IMG/VR virus record: IMGVR_UViG_3300027704_000009
Coordinates: 62,001-126,000 of that record
Source of the DNA: a virus
Strand: one strand, 5' to 3'
Length of the DNA: 64,000 bases
Shown here: in pieces, positions 43,066-51,146 of the stretch
Numbering within the stretch: position 1 is the first letter of the stretch
How the letters are laid out: every line of letters begins with the position of its first letter
The notes under the pieces: generated by a model
Told to the model about the DNA's origin: nothing
The model's database searches: none
Seen by the model: only the letters and a program-made list of their open reading frames with translations
Made by a program: the position numbers and the translations under genes

Positions 43066-43476
43066 TTAGAATCCTACGGATTCTCCACAACCACACGAAG
43101 AAGTTGCTTGGGGGTTTTCTACAACAATTTGAGAACCTCCAAAGCCTTCTTGTAAATCAATAGTTGTACCCATAATATAAAATAAACTTGTCTTATCTAT
43201 AATAAGATTCTTTTCTTCATTAAGTTTAATAACTTCATCAGCAGGATCAATTTTATCTGTTTCGATAGAATCCCACTTATATTTAAAACCTGCACAACCT
43301 CCGCCTTGTACACCAAAGTATACATTGGTTGCGTTTTGTTTATCAGCAGTTTTAATTAAAAATTCTTTTGCGGCTTCTGTAATAGCCGGTATCATACTAA
43401 ACTTCTGTACAGCCGGTTTATCAGTAGCAATGTTTTTACCTAAATCTGGTGGTGTTGGTAACGTATTCGTCTTCAT
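43066..43476 (-). CDS. IscA/ErpA-type Fe-S cluster carrier
   Basis: 136 residues from the ATG at 43476 (GGAGAGGAC upstream); an in-frame TTG is 15 bases earlier. The HesB/IscA core has the ligand Cys in GGGCAGFKY and the C-terminal CGCGESVGF pair, with VQGGGCAG between helices. It would accept and deliver Fe-S clusters. Overlaps the SufT-like gene by 41 bases. Confidence 0.85.
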   Translation of the reverse strand: MKTNTLPTPPDLGKNIATDKPAVQKFSMIPAITEAAKEFLIKTADKQNATNVYFGVQGGGCAGFKYKWDSIETDKIDPADEVIKLNEEKNLIIDKTSLFYIMGTTIDLQEGFGGSQIVVENPQATSSCGCGESVGF

Positions 43477-43858
43477 GTTCGTCCTCTCCAAGGTTTAATG
43501 TGAAACGTGCTATCTCACTCATTTGATCCGGGTTAAAAGTAGGTTCAAATGTCATTTCCACATCTACTTCATTAATTCCTGGTACTTTCAATAATGCGTC
43601 TTTTACCCATTCTGGCATTTCGCCTGCTACTGGGCAAAAAGGACTTGTTAATGTCATAACAGTCTTACATTTACCGTCTACTATATCGCAATGGTAAATT
43701 AGTCCTAACTCAAATATATTTATATGAATATCTGGATCATTAACAGTTCGTAATTGTTCTCTAACATCATCTAATTTTACATTTGTATCTGTAATACTAA
43801 AATCAAAACTACCTTCGCTATTAGAACTTCTGTTAAAGTCTTGTATTGCTACTGTCAT
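43436..43858 (-). CDS. SufT/MIP18-family Fe-S assembly protein
   Basis: 140 residues from the ATG at 43858, which overlaps the ferredoxin stop (ATGA). DPDIHINIFELGLIY and MTLTSPFCPVAGEM are the two conserved blocks of the MIP18/PaaD family, with the key Cys in FCPV. It helps mature Fe-S proteins. The operon order ferredoxin, SufT-like, IscA-like is itself strong functional evidence. Confidence 0.8.
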   Translation of the reverse strand: MTVAIQDFNRSSNSEGSFDFSITDTNVKLDDVREQLRTVNDPDIHINIFELGLIYHCDIVDGKCKTVMTLTSPFCPVAGEMPEWVKDALLKVPGINEVDVEMTFEPTFNPDQMSEIARFTLNLGEDEHEDEYVTNTTRFR

Positions 43859-44142
43859 ATCCTTATTAAAATCTTTCCGTCTGGAGCATTGTCCAAATCT
43901 AATTGACAACCTAGTCTTTGCCCAGGTCTTCCTTCTAAGTCAAGCATATCTTGTTCTTCTTGACTTGGTTCTTTAAAATATTGTTCACCTTCTAACACTG
44001 TGCAACAACATGAACCACAGGCTACTGAACCTCCGCAAGTTCCCCAATCGACATCGTCGTATAGAGCAATCATTACATTGTCCGTGCCTGTGTATTCTCG
44101 TTGAATCTTCTTGCCTTTATACAAGGCTGTTAGAATTGGCAT
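43855..44142 (-). CDS. [2Fe-2S] ferredoxin
   Basis: 95 residues. The cluster ligands are in CGGSVACGSCCCTV and a later LGCQL, matching the plant/adrenodoxin-type CX5CX2C...C pattern. Small soluble electron carrier. A ferredoxin-NADP reductase is encoded at 60151. TGA/ATG overlap with the SufT-like gene. Confidence 0.82.
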   Translation of the reverse strand: MPILTALYKGKKIQREYTGTDNVMIALYDDVDWGTCGGSVACGSCCCTVLEGEQYFKEPSQEEQDMLDLEGRPGQRLGCQLDLDNAPDGKILIRI

Positions 44143-45042: not shown

Positions 45043-46056
45043 TTATCTTGTCCTATTCATTACTTTAGTTTTATTGATACAAAACTTATTACACACTACA
45101 GACTCTCTATTGTCTATAATGCTGGATAGTCTTTTATTATACCACGAATTGGATAGAATGTCAAGTAGTTTGTTTTCATATATGTTGTTAACCTGTGGAT
45201 CAAATCCAGGCATATCGAACGGTTCTGCTTTGGCTTGTGGTGCTCTAGTGGCTGTCCAACAACAAGGCCAAACTGTTCCCCATGGATCTATTTGTATTCT
45301 CATGTCTTGATACCATATACACGGAGTATCTAGTTCTGCTTGTTCCGGTATATATGTTGTTTTATACTTGTCTTCTTTAAGTATTATGCTCTTACGTTTA
45401 AAGTTTTTAACTTTATCGTGTGATATTTTATAACTCTTATCATACACTTCTAATGTCTCATTCTTAGCAAAACTAGGTCGAATCCAGTGGCTACAACACC
45501 CCAAATCCGTCGCTAGTTGGGTAATAGCGTCTAACTGCTCCACATTGTAGTCGAAAGCAGTAGTAACAATTTCGGCATTTCCGCCTACATCATTAAATGC
45601 TTTAACGTTTTCACATATCTTTTTGAAACTTGTATTACGTCTATATAAATGGTGAGTATCTTCTAATCCATCTATTGCAAACTCAATCTTATGTGATTTA
45701 GCACGTTGTAATACTTTAGATAGTTTTTCCCACCATTTAGTATCACGCATACTTCCGTTTGTAGCAATGCCAATAGATGCTTCTGGGTGGTGTGTTACAA
45801 TGCTTTCACAAATGGCAATAAGTTCAGGGTGCATACACGCATCTCCCCAAACTCCATTAAAATGAATTTTTTTGAATAGTGATCCTTTTGTATCTTTGGA
45901 CATAACTCTGTCCCATACTTTTGGATCTATATGGTTAAGTTGTAAATGAGGTATTGTGTCTCCGCCGTCTATGTTTCTTACACAACTGACACACTTTGCG
46001 TTACAATAACTAGTAGGGTCTACTTGAATGAATTGTACACGTTTTGACCATTGCAT
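45043..46056 (-). CDS. Radical SAM enzyme with C-terminal Cys cluster
   Basis: 337 residues. CX3CX2C at 18-25 (CNAKCVSC) binds the SAM-reducing [4Fe-4S] cluster. The rest has GGD, WGDACMHPEL and a GIATNGSMRD strand as in radical SAM barrels. The C-terminal 100 residues hold CIWYQDMRIQIDPWGTVWPC and further Cys (CWTA, CNKFC), like the SPASM auxiliary-cluster domain. It likely modifies a peptide or other substrate. A sigma70-type promoter for downstream genes lies inside its 3' end. Confidence 0.8.
   Translation of the reverse strand: MQWSKRVQFIQVDPTSYCNAKCVSCVRNIDGGDTIPHLQLNHIDPKVWDRVMSKDTKGSLFKKIHFNGVWGDACMHPELIAICESIVTHHPEASIGIATNGSMRDTKWWEKLSKVLQRAKSHKIEFAIDGLEDTHHLYRRNTSFKKICENVKAFNDVGGNAEIVTTAFDYNVEQLDAITQLATDLGCCSHWIRPSFAKNETLEVYDKSYKISHDKVKNFKRKSIILKEDKYKTTYIPEQAELDTPCIWYQDMRIQIDPWGTVWPCCWTATRAPQAKAEPFDMPGFDPQVNNIYENKLLDILSNSWYNKRLSSIIDNRESVVCNKFCINKTKVMNRTR
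45136..45164 (-). promoter_or_regulatory. Consensus sigma70 promoter (TTGACA-17-TATAAT)
   Basis: Perfect -35 at 45159-45164 and perfect -10 at 45136-45141, minus strand, inside the end of the radical SAM gene. It faces 45041, IF-1 and the Fe-S genes. Confidence 0.75.
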
Positions 46057-47352: not shown

Positions 47353-47982
47353 TTACTCTAAAGGTAAAATAAAATTACCTTTTTTGTGTTTTTCTATTAA
47401 GTCATTGTATGTTTCTCCGTTTGTTCGAAAACGTAAAACAACTCTGTAACCTTTCATCTCCTCAACACTGTGAATAACTTTACCTGTTACAAGTGTTGGG
47501 TGTTCTGTACTGTAGTAAACTTTATAAATTTCTTTGCCAGGGTTACGAAAGTCGTCACCTTCTGAAAATGTTAAAGGTTCACCGCCATCATCTGGAATAA
47601 TTGGTAACATAATACTTACTTCTACTTCTTGATCAATATGAGGTACAAACGAAAAGCCTGGTTCATATGCTAATATTTGTACATCAGTAACTCCTAATGG
47701 AACCTTAAAGTTAAACTGTTTAATAAACTTTTGTATAACAGGATAATCTATTAACTCTTTACCTTCGAAGTTAGGAGCATACACTTGCCTAAACTTGTCT
47801 GTAAGTGTTTTACGATACGGATTATCTTTGTTGTACTTCTTTTTGAATTCGTTCCACGGTAAGTGACAACTGTCGTCGAACTGTTTGTAGAATTTTATTA
47901 ATTCTTGTTTATCCCACACAACACCTTCCAACACACAATGGTGTTCTGCTTCTGATGTGCCTTTGTATACTATACTGTCCAT
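47353..47982 (-). CDS. 2OG-Fe(II) oxygenase-like protein
   Basis: 209 residues from the ATG at 47982; a TTG two codons upstream is less likely. Metal site His115-x-Asp117 (FVPHID) and distal His171 (VIHSVEE), with Arg180 in YRVVLRFR as the 2OG-binding residue. Similar in layout to the oxygenase at 60875. The ATG overlaps the end of the methyltransferase gene. Last gene of a five-gene late operon. Confidence 0.75.
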   Translation of the reverse strand: MDSIVYKGTSEAEHHCVLEGVVWDKQELIKFYKQFDDSCHLPWNEFKKKYNKDNPYRKTLTDKFRQVYAPNFEGKELIDYPVIQKFIKQFNFKVPLGVTDVQILAYEPGFSFVPHIDQEVEVSIMLPIIPDDGGEPLTFSEGDDFRNPGKEIYKVYYSTEHPTLVTGKVIHSVEEMKGYRVVLRFRTNGETYNDLIEKHKKGNFILPLE

Positions 47983-48512
47983 TCCCAATAAAGCCTTTCC
48001 TGTCCTCTGTTACCAACTGTGTCTTCTCTAGTTTCCCAGATGGTTTTATATATAGTTCTAGGTCCATCTACGAATGTAAAATTAAACTCTTTAGCAAATT
48101 GTTTTACTTTTTCAACATTCCATGGATAATATAACCTATGTGTATGTTCGCACATAACTCTAAAGAATATATGACCACCAGGTTTAGTTACACGTTTTAC
48201 TTGTGCTAACTGTTTTCTAATTAAGTCTTCTTTACCAAAATTAATACTTCCTAGTGCAAGACAAACATCAACACTGTTATCTGCAAACGTTAAGTTTTCT
48301 ATTTCTATAATTATGTCTGCTTCTGGTGTTGCTATGTCTATACCAATTAAATTGTCTATTCTTGTTTTGTATAAATTTGCACCACAGCCTAAGTCTAATA
48401 CTTTTGAAGGCTTTAATGAGTTTACTTTTTCGATTAAAGGTTCAGCACAATCGGGCCATCTGTACAAGTCTGTACTACCTTCTTTAAATATTGATGTTAC
48501 TGTATCTTGCAT
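47970..48512 (-). CDS. Class I SAM-dependent methyltransferase
   Basis: 180 residues from the second ATG (48512). Motif I VLDLGCGA, acidic motif II (GIDIATPEADI) and a motif IV-like LALGSINFG strand, then PGGHIFFRV post-motif. It transfers methyl from SAM to a small molecule, sugar, nucleotide or protein. Set between two 2OG oxygenases in a translationally coupled operon, which suggests a joint modification pathway. Confidence 0.78.
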   Translation of the reverse strand: MQDTVTSIFKEGSTDLYRWPDCAEPLIEKVNSLKPSKVLDLGCGANLYKTRIDNLIGIDIATPEADIIIEIENLTFADNSVDVCLALGSINFGKEDLIRKQLAQVKRVTKPGGHIFFRVMCEHTHRLYYPWNVEKVKQFAKEFNFTFVDGPRTIYKTIWETREDTVGNRGQERLYWEWTV

Positions 48513-49287
48513 CATTTAAAAATTCTCTAGTTTTATCTGTTACTATGCCTGTTATATTTAACACGGGTCTTGGGCTGTGTCCGTAATTACAAGTTCCATG
48601 TGGAACATCTCTCCAGGGCCATGTAATACAATCACCACGTTTCCACTTTATTAATAGATTACCTAATTGAAATATCTGTCCTTGTCGTTGATCATCTAAA
48701 AATATCATTGTTCTCATTACTTTGCGTTGATCCAAGTCTCCCTTATCAGCATTATCATATTCTTGTCTGGATTTTTTAAGTACTCCACCAAAGTTATCTA
48801 AATGCCAATAAAAACATTGTCCAGGCTTTTGTACATCAAACTTTACTACACCCGGCTTTTCAAAACCAAATGCATCTACAATGTATTGTAAACTATCTTT
48901 TAATTTAGGGTGTAATGTTCTGTTAGCAATAGTGTATCCACCATCTATATCATAACCCCATTTTTTAAAGTCGTTTTCTTCCCAGTCGTTTGTCGTGTCT
49001 TTTCTTGTTTGTTTACGAAACTTAAAGTCTGCTGGTTTTGTTTCTGCACTTAATTCTGCAACTGCTTGATCCCAGTCACCACTAAAGTTTCCAACAGGTA
49101 TTACTGGTGGGCAATCGCCATCTAATTCTGCAATATCATCTCTCGATTCATCGAAATGATATCTACTTGTTGCTTTACAAAAATCGTATAAACTATTATA
49201 ACCATCTTTACTTACAGGTGGTTGTGTTTTTAGTTTTTCCCACATCGACAATGGGTCTCTACTAAATTCTAAATCATAAAATTGCAT
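48484..49287 (-). CDS. 2OG-Fe(II) oxygenase-like protein
   Basis: 267 residues from the ATG at 49287, which overlaps the stop of the QueC-like gene (TAATG) and has GGAG upstream. His162-x-Asp164 (YWHLDNF), distal His230 (VPHGTC) and Arg240 (SPRPVL) form the expected triad and co-substrate residue. The N-terminal 130 residues are distinctive and unrecognised. Cupin fold; substrate unknown. Confidence 0.75.
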   Translation of the reverse strand: MQFYDLEFSRDPLSMWEKLKTQPPVSKDGYNSLYDFCKATSRYHFDESRDDIAELDGDCPPVIPVGNFSGDWDQAVAELSAETKPADFKFRKQTRKDTTNDWEENDFKKWGYDIDGGYTIANRTLHPKLKDSLQYIVDAFGFEKPGVVKFDVQKPGQCFYWHLDNFGGVLKKSRQEYDNADKGDLDQRKVMRTMIFLDDQRQGQIFQLGNLLIKWKRGDCITWPWRDVPHGTCNYGHSPRPVLNITGIVTDKTREFLNDARYSNINI

Positions 49288-49874
49288 TAATATTCTCCAA
49301 AGGCCCAATGCCTTTCTTTACACCACCAACATTCTTTGCATGGTCTCGGTGGCTGTGTTGCTTCGCAACTTATAGTTAACGGAAAAAGTGTTTCAAGTAA
49401 GTTGTACTCTTTGTAACGTTTAGCAATGTCTTTTTTATCTAAGTCTGCTAAAGGTCTATACATAGTTAAACCGTTTTTAGTTGTAACTACTTTTTCTAGT
49501 TTTTGATTGCGTGTTTCGTCTGATCCTTCTCCAAGATACTCGGAAGGGTTTCGAGTAAAGCCGTTTATGTAACAATCTAAATTGTGGAATTCTGCAAACT
49601 TTTTTCGTAACTTGTCACGTTTTGCTTTTCCTTCGGCTCTATCTTTAAAAGTATATATTGCATATGCTTTAATATTACTTATCTTTAATTCGTTTAGTAT
49701 TTTGTCAACATTGTCTAAATGATATTGCCCATCATCTAATCTTGAACCTACATACAAGTATAATTCACTGTTAGGGTGTGTTTTAGATATTTGATACAAC
49801 ATAAGTGAACTGTCAGCACCTCCGCTAAACAATACACCAATCTTGTTATGTTGTGGTATTACACTCGTTTCCAT
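49287..49874 (-). CDS. queC: QueC-like PP-loop ATPase (7-cyano-7-deazaguanine synthase-like)
   Basis: 195 residues. The PP-loop SGGADSS at 17-23 binds ATP; DETRNQ and RPLADLDKKDI follow. The C-terminus has Cys170, Cys179, Cys182 and Cys185, exactly the CX8CX2CX2C zinc spacing of QueC. QueC turns carboxy-deazaguanine into preQ0 for queuosine/archaeosine or phage DNA deazaguanine. No queD, queE, folE or dpdA gene is visible in this window, so it could serve another nitrile/amide-type reaction. Coupled to a 2OG oxygenase downstream and the 377-residue gene upstream. Confidence 0.78.
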   Translation of the reverse strand: METSVIPQHNKIGVLFSGGADSSLMLYQISKTHPNSELYLYVGSRLDDGQYHLDNVDKILNELKISNIKAYAIYTFKDRAEGKAKRDKLRKKFAEFHNLDCYINGFTRNPSEYLGEGSDETRNQKLEKVVTTKNGLTMYRPLADLDKKDIAKRYKEYNLLETLFPLTISCEATQPPRPCKECWWCKERHWAFGEY

Positions 49875-50992
49875 AATTTTGCTCTTGAATCGCCACCGTC
49901 TTTCAACATTATTGAAGCGGCTTTAGTACTAGTTCCATTAAATGTATGGCAACAATGATCTGACCCATACACTAGTAGTTTAGGATTATATGATTCTAAG
50001 GTTTTCATAAACCGTTTTACATTTGTATAACTTTGTTGGCTAGTTTTGTTAACATTTGCTGGTTGTCTCTTTAATGCACCATTATACCAGAATACACTAA
50101 AGTCATATGCTTCATGTTCGTCTAATATTCGTTTGAGTGCAGTATGATCACCTAAATTACAAACATAAAAATTGTGTTTACACTTCTTATACGTTGTCCA
50201 ATGTGTTATCCATTCATCATGTGTCCATTTTTTGTTCATATGGTCCAATACTTCATGTGTAGGCTTGTGTCCACGTTGAAATTGTTTACCATTAAAGGTA
50301 CTTAATAGTGGAAACTTCTCATATAAATGGTCCAACCAGGATAGATAATCTTCCCCGTCCCAATTAGCAATAGTATACTTTCGAACTGCTATACTGCTTT
50401 TGCTTATATCAATATGGTTAACAATAGTATCTTCAGTAAAGCCACCATCTTCTAAAATATAGTTAATATAGAAGCCGGAGCTCACTGTCATTGCCCATTG
50501 TATAGGTGTAATACGCCCGTACACGGGCTTTGGTATCTCATTATGCACAACATATGCCAGATTTGAGTTCTTTAAAACCATGTCTATTGCACTATCGTGA
50601 GTAGCACTAAAAGTATCTGCATTTGAAGGATCAACTACAGGAAAGTCATAAGATAGTTCAAGTTTTGTATTATTGTGTGTGCCACTTGGATTATAAATTG
50701 TAATATCTGGGCCTATATCATACCAACGAAATTTTCCAATCTGTGGTTCAATCACTCTTTGGAAATACGAATAAGGAAATATAACTCCAGCCGTAACTAC
50801 GATTGTCATATCATAATCTATGAAATGTTCATAGTTTAGATTAGTAGTTTCAAAGAAATGCCAATCAGCATTTTCTTCAAAACGGTCTGCCATACAGTAA
50901 TCAAAATTTAATTTTGTGTAATTGGTGGCGACCTGATAAAACCATGTAGGAAGTTGATCTTCTTTTACATGATTAATGACAAAAGCCTTCAT
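49859..50992 (-). CDS. Unrecognised 377-residue protein, first gene of late modification operon
   Basis: 377 residues, aromatic-rich, mixed alpha/beta, with no sure motif. Distinct blocks are an N-terminal MKAFVINHVKEDQLP, a middle YDFPVVDPSNADTF and a C-terminal YNPKLLVYGSDHCCHTF. A glycosyltransferase-like role is possible but not shown. Its 3' end overlaps the QueC-like gene by 16 bases, and the late box at 51017 with AAGGTG drives the operon. Confidence 0.55.
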   Translation of the reverse strand: MKAFVINHVKEDQLPTWFYQVATNYTKLNFDYCMADRFEENADWHFFETTNLNYEHFIDYDMTIVVTAGVIFPYSYFQRVIEPQIGKFRWYDIGPDITIYNPSGTHNNTKLELSYDFPVVDPSNADTFSATHDSAIDMVLKNSNLAYVVHNEIPKPVYGRITPIQWAMTVSSGFYINYILEDGGFTEDTIVNHIDISKSSIAVRKYTIANWDGEDYLSWLDHLYEKFPLLSTFNGKQFQRGHKPTHEVLDHMNKKWTHDEWITHWTTYKKCKHNFYVCNLGDHTALKRILDEHEAYDFSVFWYNGALKRQPANVNKTSQQSYTNVKRFMKTLESYNPKLLVYGSDHCCHTFNGTSTKAASIMLKDGGDSRAKLWKRV

Positions 50993-51016
50993 TTTTTCAC
51001 CTTAGGATTATATTAG

Positions 51017-51024
51017 TATTTATT
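51017..51024 (-). promoter_or_regulatory. T4-type late promoter box (AATAAATA)
   Basis: AATAAATAC followed by TAATATAATCC and AAGGTG; 24 bases before the ATG at 50992. It lies just after the tRNA-Arg terminator. Confidence 0.6.
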
Positions 51025-51029
51025 CACCC

Positions 51030-51063
51030 AAAAAGGCGATGACACAATTAAGTATCACCGCCT
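51030..51063 (-). terminator. Intrinsic terminator after tRNA-Arg
   Basis: On the minus strand AGGCGGTGA, 12-base loop, TCATCGCCT then TTTT: a 9-base-pair stem with one mismatch and a T run. Confidence 0.8.
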
Positions 51064-51069
51064 ACGCAT

Positions 51070-51146
51070 TGGCCTGCCCTAGAGGATTCGAACCTCTGAC
51101 CTAGTGCTTAGAAGGCACTTGCTCTATCCAACTGAGCTAAGGGCAG
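51070..51146 (-). tRNA. tRNA-Arg (anticodon TCT)
   Basis: 77 bases including encoded CCA. Acceptor CTGCCCT/AGGGCAG, D-arm GCTCAGTTGGATAGAGC, anticodon stem-loop AGTGC-CTTCTAA-GCACT (anticodon TCT), T-arm AGAGG-TTCGAAT-CCTCT. Reads AGA, the favoured Arg codon in AT-rich genes. A terminator follows. Confidence 0.95.

Follow-up and report, generated by a model that had tools for sequence, protein, structure and literature searches.

QueC is the 7-cyano-7-deazaguanine synthase (PF06508, TIGR00364), and enzymes of its superfamily have recently been reported to be repurposed in anti-phage defence (PMC13279940, PMC13329287). They include Cap9 of the type IV cyclic oligonucleotide-based anti-phage signalling system (CBASS) and QatC of the Qat system, each with a dedicated partner protein. 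The superfamily also takes in WbpG, which carries an N-sugar amidotransferase annotation linked to O antigen (PMC13329287). Phages are also described in which DpdA or DpdA2 modify DNA together with FolE, QueD, QueE and QueC (PMC6884629), and queC is reported to be abundant among viral genes in the Baltic Sea (PMC9301287). Here we describe a five-gene cassette (47353-50992, minus strand) in a window of 64,000 nucleotides, bases 62001-126000 of the 136,449-base virus record IMGVR_UViG_3300027704_000009 (G000). From sequence comparison its PP-loop enzyme appears to belong to a QueC-superfamily branch that is mostly viral and that has a new, constant partner, a 377-residue protein referred to as u377. 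The reading that we prefer, with a probability of roughly 45%, is that the cassette is a late small-molecule or glycan tailoring unit in which the PP-loop enzyme would form an amide.

The cassette consists of five minus-strand open reading frames (ORFs) lying head to tail, each overlapping the next. These are u377 (49859-50992), a PP-loop (QueC-superfamily) ATP pyrophosphatase-like enzyme (49287-49874; 195 aa, with the zinc motif CX8CX2CX2C), the 2-oxoglutarate (2OG)-Fe(II) oxygenase-like oxyA (48484-49308; 274 aa, probable ATG start at 49287), a class I S-adenosylmethionine (SAM)-dependent methyltransferase (47970-48515; 181 aa) and oxyB, a candidate 2OG-Fe(II) oxygenase with the triad motif (47353-47988; 211 aa). 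The successive overlaps are 16 nt, 22 nt (1 nt if oxyA begins at its ATG, like its homologue in L003), 32 nt and 19 nt (13 nt counted from the ATG). An earlier note on this DNA had given overlaps of 4-32 bases. The dN/dS values of the five genes (0.055-0.244 against the relatives L001 and L003) indicate purifying selection, and hence that all five ORFs are real genes. Their order is preserved in L001, L003 and L002, although in L002 the contig ends within u377; the contigs of these three are L065, L066 and L067, respectively. The earlier description of a five-gene overlapping late unit is thus borne out, and the conservation of order that it asked to be checked is seen in these three; elsewhere some phages carry u377 and oxygenases without a PP-loop gene, or have the genes rearranged. 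In G007, for example, the u377 and PP-loop pair, oxyA and the methyltransferase gene lie within 7 kb in another arrangement. Record G001 is the same virus as G000, and the stretch of the window is also contained in a 306,714-base IMG/VR contig (L004) whose PP-loop protein is 100% identical.

The PP-loop protein is a member of the QueC superfamily: it passes the Pfam QueC model PF06508 (E 1.2e-10; 41.8 bits for a gathering score of 22), with the best stretch at residues 130-194. The SGGADS and CX8CX2CX2C motifs read in the earlier note are both present and, like K165, are shared with QueC. It differs from QueC in failing the NCBIfam equivalog TIGR00364 (30.1 bits for a cut-off of 150.3) and in having u377 as its neighbour in place of QueD/QueE. 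In the whole family, a set of 67 distinct proteins including that of the window, SGGxDS occurs in 61 members and the zinc motif has the exact CX8 spacing in 13 and a spacing of 5-14 in 62. The family has marks of its own, C..C[WF][WF]CxE[RK] in 59/67 and a GxTxNP-like motif in 39/67. The three canonical QueC patterns, YxQxHxxE, VPxRN and YPDC (PMC13329287), are each found in 0/67. As controls E. coli QueC has all three and the QueC of phage nt-1 one, so that these patterns must be considered strict.

An alignment of six phage PP-loop proteins with E. coli and nt-1 QueC allows a comparison by residue. K165 and the four zinc cysteines are kept in all six. Y35 and Y189, on the substrate side of QueC, are replaced in 6/6, the R99 position is K or R, and Y131 is a tyrosine only in the protein of the window. 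In QueC, Y35A, R99A, Y131A and Y189A each lead to loss of function (PMC13329287). Plain preQ0 or queuosine synthesis by the cassette was considered and set aside, despite FolE, QueD and QueE in the genome, since neither the score for the QueC equivalog nor the residues on the substrate side agree with it.

The partner, u377, which the earlier note had called an unknown protein, has no match in Pfam or PHROG; its AlphaFold2 model (pLDDT 79.2, pTM 0.76) now suggests two domains. Residues from about 136 to 370 are predicted to adopt a class I methyltransferase-like Rossmann fold with putative SAM binding: VIA gives Z scores of 11.1 (6ulo) and 9.7 (methyltransferases) for residues 138-369, and Foldseek an E value of 2.1e-04 with a TM of just 0.29 of the query. 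Residues 1-134 are tentatively predicted to be nucleotidyltransferase/GT-A-like, with one CobY match over residues 2-134 (VIA Z 8.1, a level at which chance matches occur). The DXD motif associated with GT-A glycosyltransferases was not seen in the sequence. Two uncharacterised phage proteins resemble a large part of the model (TM 0.62 and 0.63).

We collected 26 u377 loci, which group into 17 lineages when a threshold of 90% identity is used. In 13 loci the PP-loop gene directly adjoins u377, in 6 it is the next gene but one, in 1 the two are fused and in 6 no PP-loop gene was found, so that the pair is present in 20/26 loci and 13/17 lineages. The natural fusion (L075) is a single frame of 559 aa. 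For three of the six loci lacking the PP-loop gene (L068, L070 and L073) the whole contig was searched and gave no PP-loop match; absences in relatives are generally weak because most contigs are fragments. Being adjacent or fused across many related phages, u377 and the PP-loop protein probably work as one machine.

The remaining three genes conform to the two oxygenases with an HxD...H signature and the class I methyltransferase described in the earlier note. In both oxyA (H169-x-D171...H237...R247) and oxyB (H117-x-D119...H173...R182) the iron triad and the 2OG-binding arginine of 2OG-Fe(II) oxygenases are invariant in 7/7 aligned sequences. The oxyA profile matches the 2OG enzyme AtsK across 46 positions (E 4e-4) and Asp_Arg_Hydrox under the cut-off (E 0.01). 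Family matches of oxyB are marginal (PHROG 2OG, E 0.033; PADLOC 2OG, E 0.023), a sequence search of the PDB gave none, and oxyB is retained as a candidate. The fourth gene matches Methyltransf_11 above the cut-off (E 7.7e-08).

The earlier note had placed the cassette behind one late box and just after a terminator, which agrees with what we find. The box GAATAAATACTA (51014-51025, minus strand) lies 21 nt ahead of the u377 ATG. An intrinsic terminator-like stem (51034-51063, minus strand; 12 pairs, then a T run) precedes the cassette, separating it from a tRNA-Arg gene (51070-51146). Of 20 minus-strand sites for NATAAATA, 13 lie 8-60 nt upstream of ORF starts (two share one zone), a zone that makes up 7.1% of positions; NATAAATA has 2 sites on the plus strand. 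Two results count against the late-box call. Exact TATAAATA, which we take to be the T4 late consensus, was found 3 times for a shuffle mean of 10.5, that is, less often than by chance, and allowing 2 mismatches reveals no enrichment of the longer pattern RAATAAATACTA (50 for 44.8 expected). Exact TATAAATA was rejected as the late box for its rarity, and the placement of NATAAATA ahead of starts is the better evidence.

The wider neighbourhood suggests what the cassette may act upon. Of the 26 u377 loci, 20 have oxygenase-type genes, 19 sulfotransferase-like genes and likewise 19 GNAT-like genes, whereas AMP-ligase genes occur in 18 loci, methyltransferase genes in 10, radical SAM genes in 9 and tail-fibre-like genes in 6; some loci also hold an aminotransferase gene in the flanking block. 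The label GNAT-like is our own and has no Pfam match, and sulfotransferase-like has the support of one match below the Pfam cut-off. On the 306-kb contig the same block occurs without u377 about 90 kb from the cassette. L224, which was found through another gene, has a run of four overlapping genes, encoding oxygenase, distant u377-like, PP-loop and GNAT-like proteins, next to a tail-fibre-like gene. At L227 the genes around a u377-like gene are of the oxygenase, GNAT-like and AMP-ligase-like types, and no PP-loop gene was seen there. Both loci were chosen because they match u377. A gene at L227 11829-12935, near the u377-like gene and many Asp/Arg-hydroxylase-like genes, resembles by eye a flavin-dependent tryptophan halogenase.

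We propose that the substrate would be a small molecule or glycan-type group supplied by this wider block of AMP-ligase, GNAT-like and sulfotransferase-like proteins, rather than a DNA base. The PP-loop enzyme would adenylate a carboxylate using ATP and then form an amide by transferring it to ammonia or an amine. u377 might hold, methylate or glycosylate the substrate of the PP-loop enzyme, oxyA and oxyB would hydroxylate the cassette substrate, and the separate methyltransferase may cap the product, which could be placed on the virion or host surface late in infection. Amide-forming PP-loop chemistry on carbohydrates, as in the WbpG-type N-sugar amidotransferases (cluster 5 of PMC13329287), would fit such a scheme. 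That cluster is set apart by its published motif, CxxC(x)6CxC, from the CX8CX2CX2C of the cassette. The earlier note had inferred a coordinated late modification of a nucleobase, glycan or peptide: gene order, the core pair and the lack of the canonical QueC signature and equivalog score in the PP-loop protein support the unit.

The association with tail fibres is suggestive and not general. In L068-L073 u377 and oxyA or oxyB are close to an Mtd_N tail-fibre gene; as a general rule the link was rejected, being seen in only 6/37 u377 loci and 0/85 PP-loop loci (L001-L091). It is also present in L224 and L227, the two loci picked by their match to u377. Accordingly, no tail-fibre-like gene was found in the fetched stretch of 31/37 u377 and 85/85 PP-loop loci, nor, by profile, in the window, and this weighs against the tailoring unit that we favour. 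So do the six u377 loci of 26 with no adjoining PP-loop gene, the weakness in Pfam of the GNAT-like and, in part, the sulfotransferase-like labels, and the identity of oxyB, which is assigned by its motif. Two further points concern 7-deazaguanines: every good-case genome tested in the virus group also has 7-deazaguanine genes, and the characterised zinc-type relatives QueC, Cap9 and, by proposal, QatC act with 7-deazaguanines, 7-carboxy-7-deazaguanine (CDG) being the one described (PMC13329287).

These genes bear on another claim of the earlier note, that no other deazaguanine gene is in view. Inside the window this is uncontradicted. For the phage as a whole it is rejected: the note had pointed to the rest of the genome as the place to look for folE-, queD-, queE- and dpdA-type genes, and there FolE, QueD, QueE-like and Vut_1 transporter genes were found together with a candidate TGT (tRNA-guanine transglycosylase)-fold protein (L115 8778-10138 and 17281-20000; L116 5543-7006). 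The idea of a non-queuosine product thus loses its premise, which held for the window only. The TGT-fold protein, of 487 aa, was found through gene context and a motif and then through structure. It has no sequence match in Pfam, PHROGs or the PDB (PF01702, the TGT family, matched 0/10 records), and hhalign against DpdA2 of phage nt-1 is weak (probability 0.8%, E 0.073). In a model of a 77%-identical relative (pLDDT 69.0, pTM 0.77) the best Foldseek match is a TGT (6.5e-06), and VIA gives a best Z of 17.9 with TGTs in 50/50 listed rows. A TGT fold is therefore predicted for the protein. In the cultured Pseudomonas phage PA5oct a TGT-like relative (34% identity) lies about 3 kb from a QueE-like gene. 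A weakly glycosyltransferase-like gene (L116 738-1865; Glycos_transf_1 below cut-off) lies beside the TGT-like gene in 67/80 loci and perhaps belongs to base modification.

No canonical queC was found in G000, where the sole PF06508 match is the PP-loop gene of the cassette. PF06508 misses many members of the PP-loop family (above cut-off in 7/26 records) and is a weak detector, so the statement that canonical QueC is missing relies on a family model, which matches 12/14 control genomes, and on phmmer searches of 80 loci that took the QueC proteins of E. coli and nt-1 as queries. FolE, QueD, QueE-like, Vut_1 and the TGT-fold protein without canonical QueC likely form a 7-deazaguanine insertion system. 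It resembles the DpdA/DpdA2 systems (PMC6884629) in having FolE, QueD, a QueE-like protein and a predicted TGT fold, and differs in the missing canonical QueC, the weak match to nt-1 DpdA2 and the position of the cassette in another part of the genome.

With these genes in the same genome a 7-deazaguanine substrate is possible, though several results oppose it. The main rival to the tailoring unit is that the cassette would build a hypermodified DNA base: FolE, QueD and QueE would make CDG, the TGT-fold enzyme would insert the 7-deazaguanine, the PP-loop enzyme would replace QueC by activating the 7-carboxylate, and u377, the oxygenases and the methyltransferase would elaborate the product. 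We consider this possible but rather doubtful. FolE, QueD, QueE-like, Vut_1 and TGT-like genes share the record of the cassette, in which the PP-loop gene is the only PF06508 match; late expression would suit post-replicative work, and for the known zinc-type relatives an action with CDG has been described (PMC13329287). The TGT-like gene is also present in 12/14 records with u377 and the PP-loop gene (G000 and G001 being the same virus), an association that may reflect plain kinship of the phages. It is found in 2/3 records with u377 alone, versus 1/9 with the PP-loop gene and no u377 in the locus, the absence of u377 being judged on the fetched locus alone. That 8/9 of these last records lack it argues against a base and supports tailoring of another substrate. 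Conversely, of 15 records that have the TGT-like gene, 12 lacked any PP-loop match. Among the best 80 TGT-like loci, for which 10 kb was fetched, FolE occurs in 43 and QueE in 31, and the PP-loop gene, u377 and canonical QueC in none. The replacement of Y35 and Y189 is a further point against a DNA base, as is the different gene set with which u377 travels. Given this split between TGT-like and cassette genes, DNA-base tailoring remains the main rival and small-molecule or glycan tailoring the best explanation.

CDG may enter in two other ways. The QueC-like ligase and u377 could couple phage-made CDG, or another carboxylate, to an amine-bearing acceptor on DNA, a virion protein or a glycan, the oxygenases and the methyltransferase elaborating the product afterwards. 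We regard this as unlikely; if true, the phage would encode a type of conjugation chemistry for which the literature searched gave no precedent. Still less probable is a conjugation like that of Cap9, in which the PP-loop enzyme would join phage-made CDG to a protein (u377, or one of the virion or host), for example in counter-defence. Modification of a partner protein has been described for both Cap9 and QatC (PMC13279940, PMC13329287), and u377 is a constant partner. The PADLOC QueC model matches the PP-loop protein (E 5.5e-06), Cap9 is similar in length to the phage PP-loop proteins (near 185-200 aa), and a Glu directly follows the first zinc Cys in 5/6 aligned sequences, as in the Cap9 motif CE(x)6C. 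The full pattern CE(x)6CxxCxxCxD fails, however: the protein of the window has CE but the CX8C spacing and no Asp after the last Cys, and QatC differs again with C(x)19C. u377, for its part, has predicted folded domains in place of a known flexible tail, and no Met-Gly start. The cassette has no CD-NTase (Pfam, PADLOC), and QatA, QatB and QatD were likewise not found in it by Pfam, PHROG and PADLOC; its partner is of another type, is phage-encoded and is adjoined by oxygenases and a methyltransferase. The points made above against CDG in a DNA base apply here as well.

Radical SAM genes raise a last alternative, the maturation of a phage-encoded peptide in the manner of ribosomally synthesized and post-translationally modified peptides (RiPPs). 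PP-loop relatives do occur in arrays that also encode radical SAM proteins, including one with a SPASM match, and the window has a radical SAM/SPASM gene 1.3 kb downstream of the cassette. This gene is outside the overlapping unit, and radical SAM genes are absent from the fetched stretch of 17/26 u377 loci. No precursor peptide was recognised, although no dedicated search was made, and a nitrile-forming RiPP enzyme that has been described is asparagine-synthetase-like (PMC13060819). Of the alternatives this seems to us the most improbable. Beyond the one near u377, record G007 has three PP-loop genes (4 in the whole record); locus L103 (G007:C1:68000-87900) holds 3, interspersed with ten radical SAM genes by profile. 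It also encodes a nitroreductase and a radical SAM protein of the B12-binding type, an array resembling specialised metabolism.

The branch is found almost only in virus contigs among the sequences searched. Two u377 and two PP-loop queries gave no match in 50,697 phage records at the search sensitivity used, and a pattern-limited search of a bacterial collection gave matches in 2 small contigs. We found no description in the literature searched of the u377 and PP-loop pair or of the five-gene cassette, and the available part of the paper mapping the QueC family (PMC13329287) describes no phage cluster of this kind. What sets the locus apart is a separate QueC branch tied to a new partner, to which it is once fused, and often to oxygenases, in a genome with CDG-pathway genes and no canonical QueC found. 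As the five proteins are small, the chemistry of the cassette is directly testable in the laboratory.

Several other features were noted in passing. In L015, L021, L048 and similar loci without u377, the PP-loop gene lies between an Asp_Arg_Hydrox oxygenase gene and that of DNA polymerase B. L104 (10486-13005) contains a gene for a TctA-family transporter (Pfam) with a neighbour that is TctC-like by eye, and L226 (9614-10903) a gene that is TctA-like by eye. The window encodes iron-sulphur assembly functions at 43066-44142 and 45043-46056 (an A-type carrier, FeS_assembly_P and a ferredoxin). The 306-kb contig has NifU-like, SufE and IscU-like genes (L117 4101-4851, 8647-9063) beside radical SAM genes.

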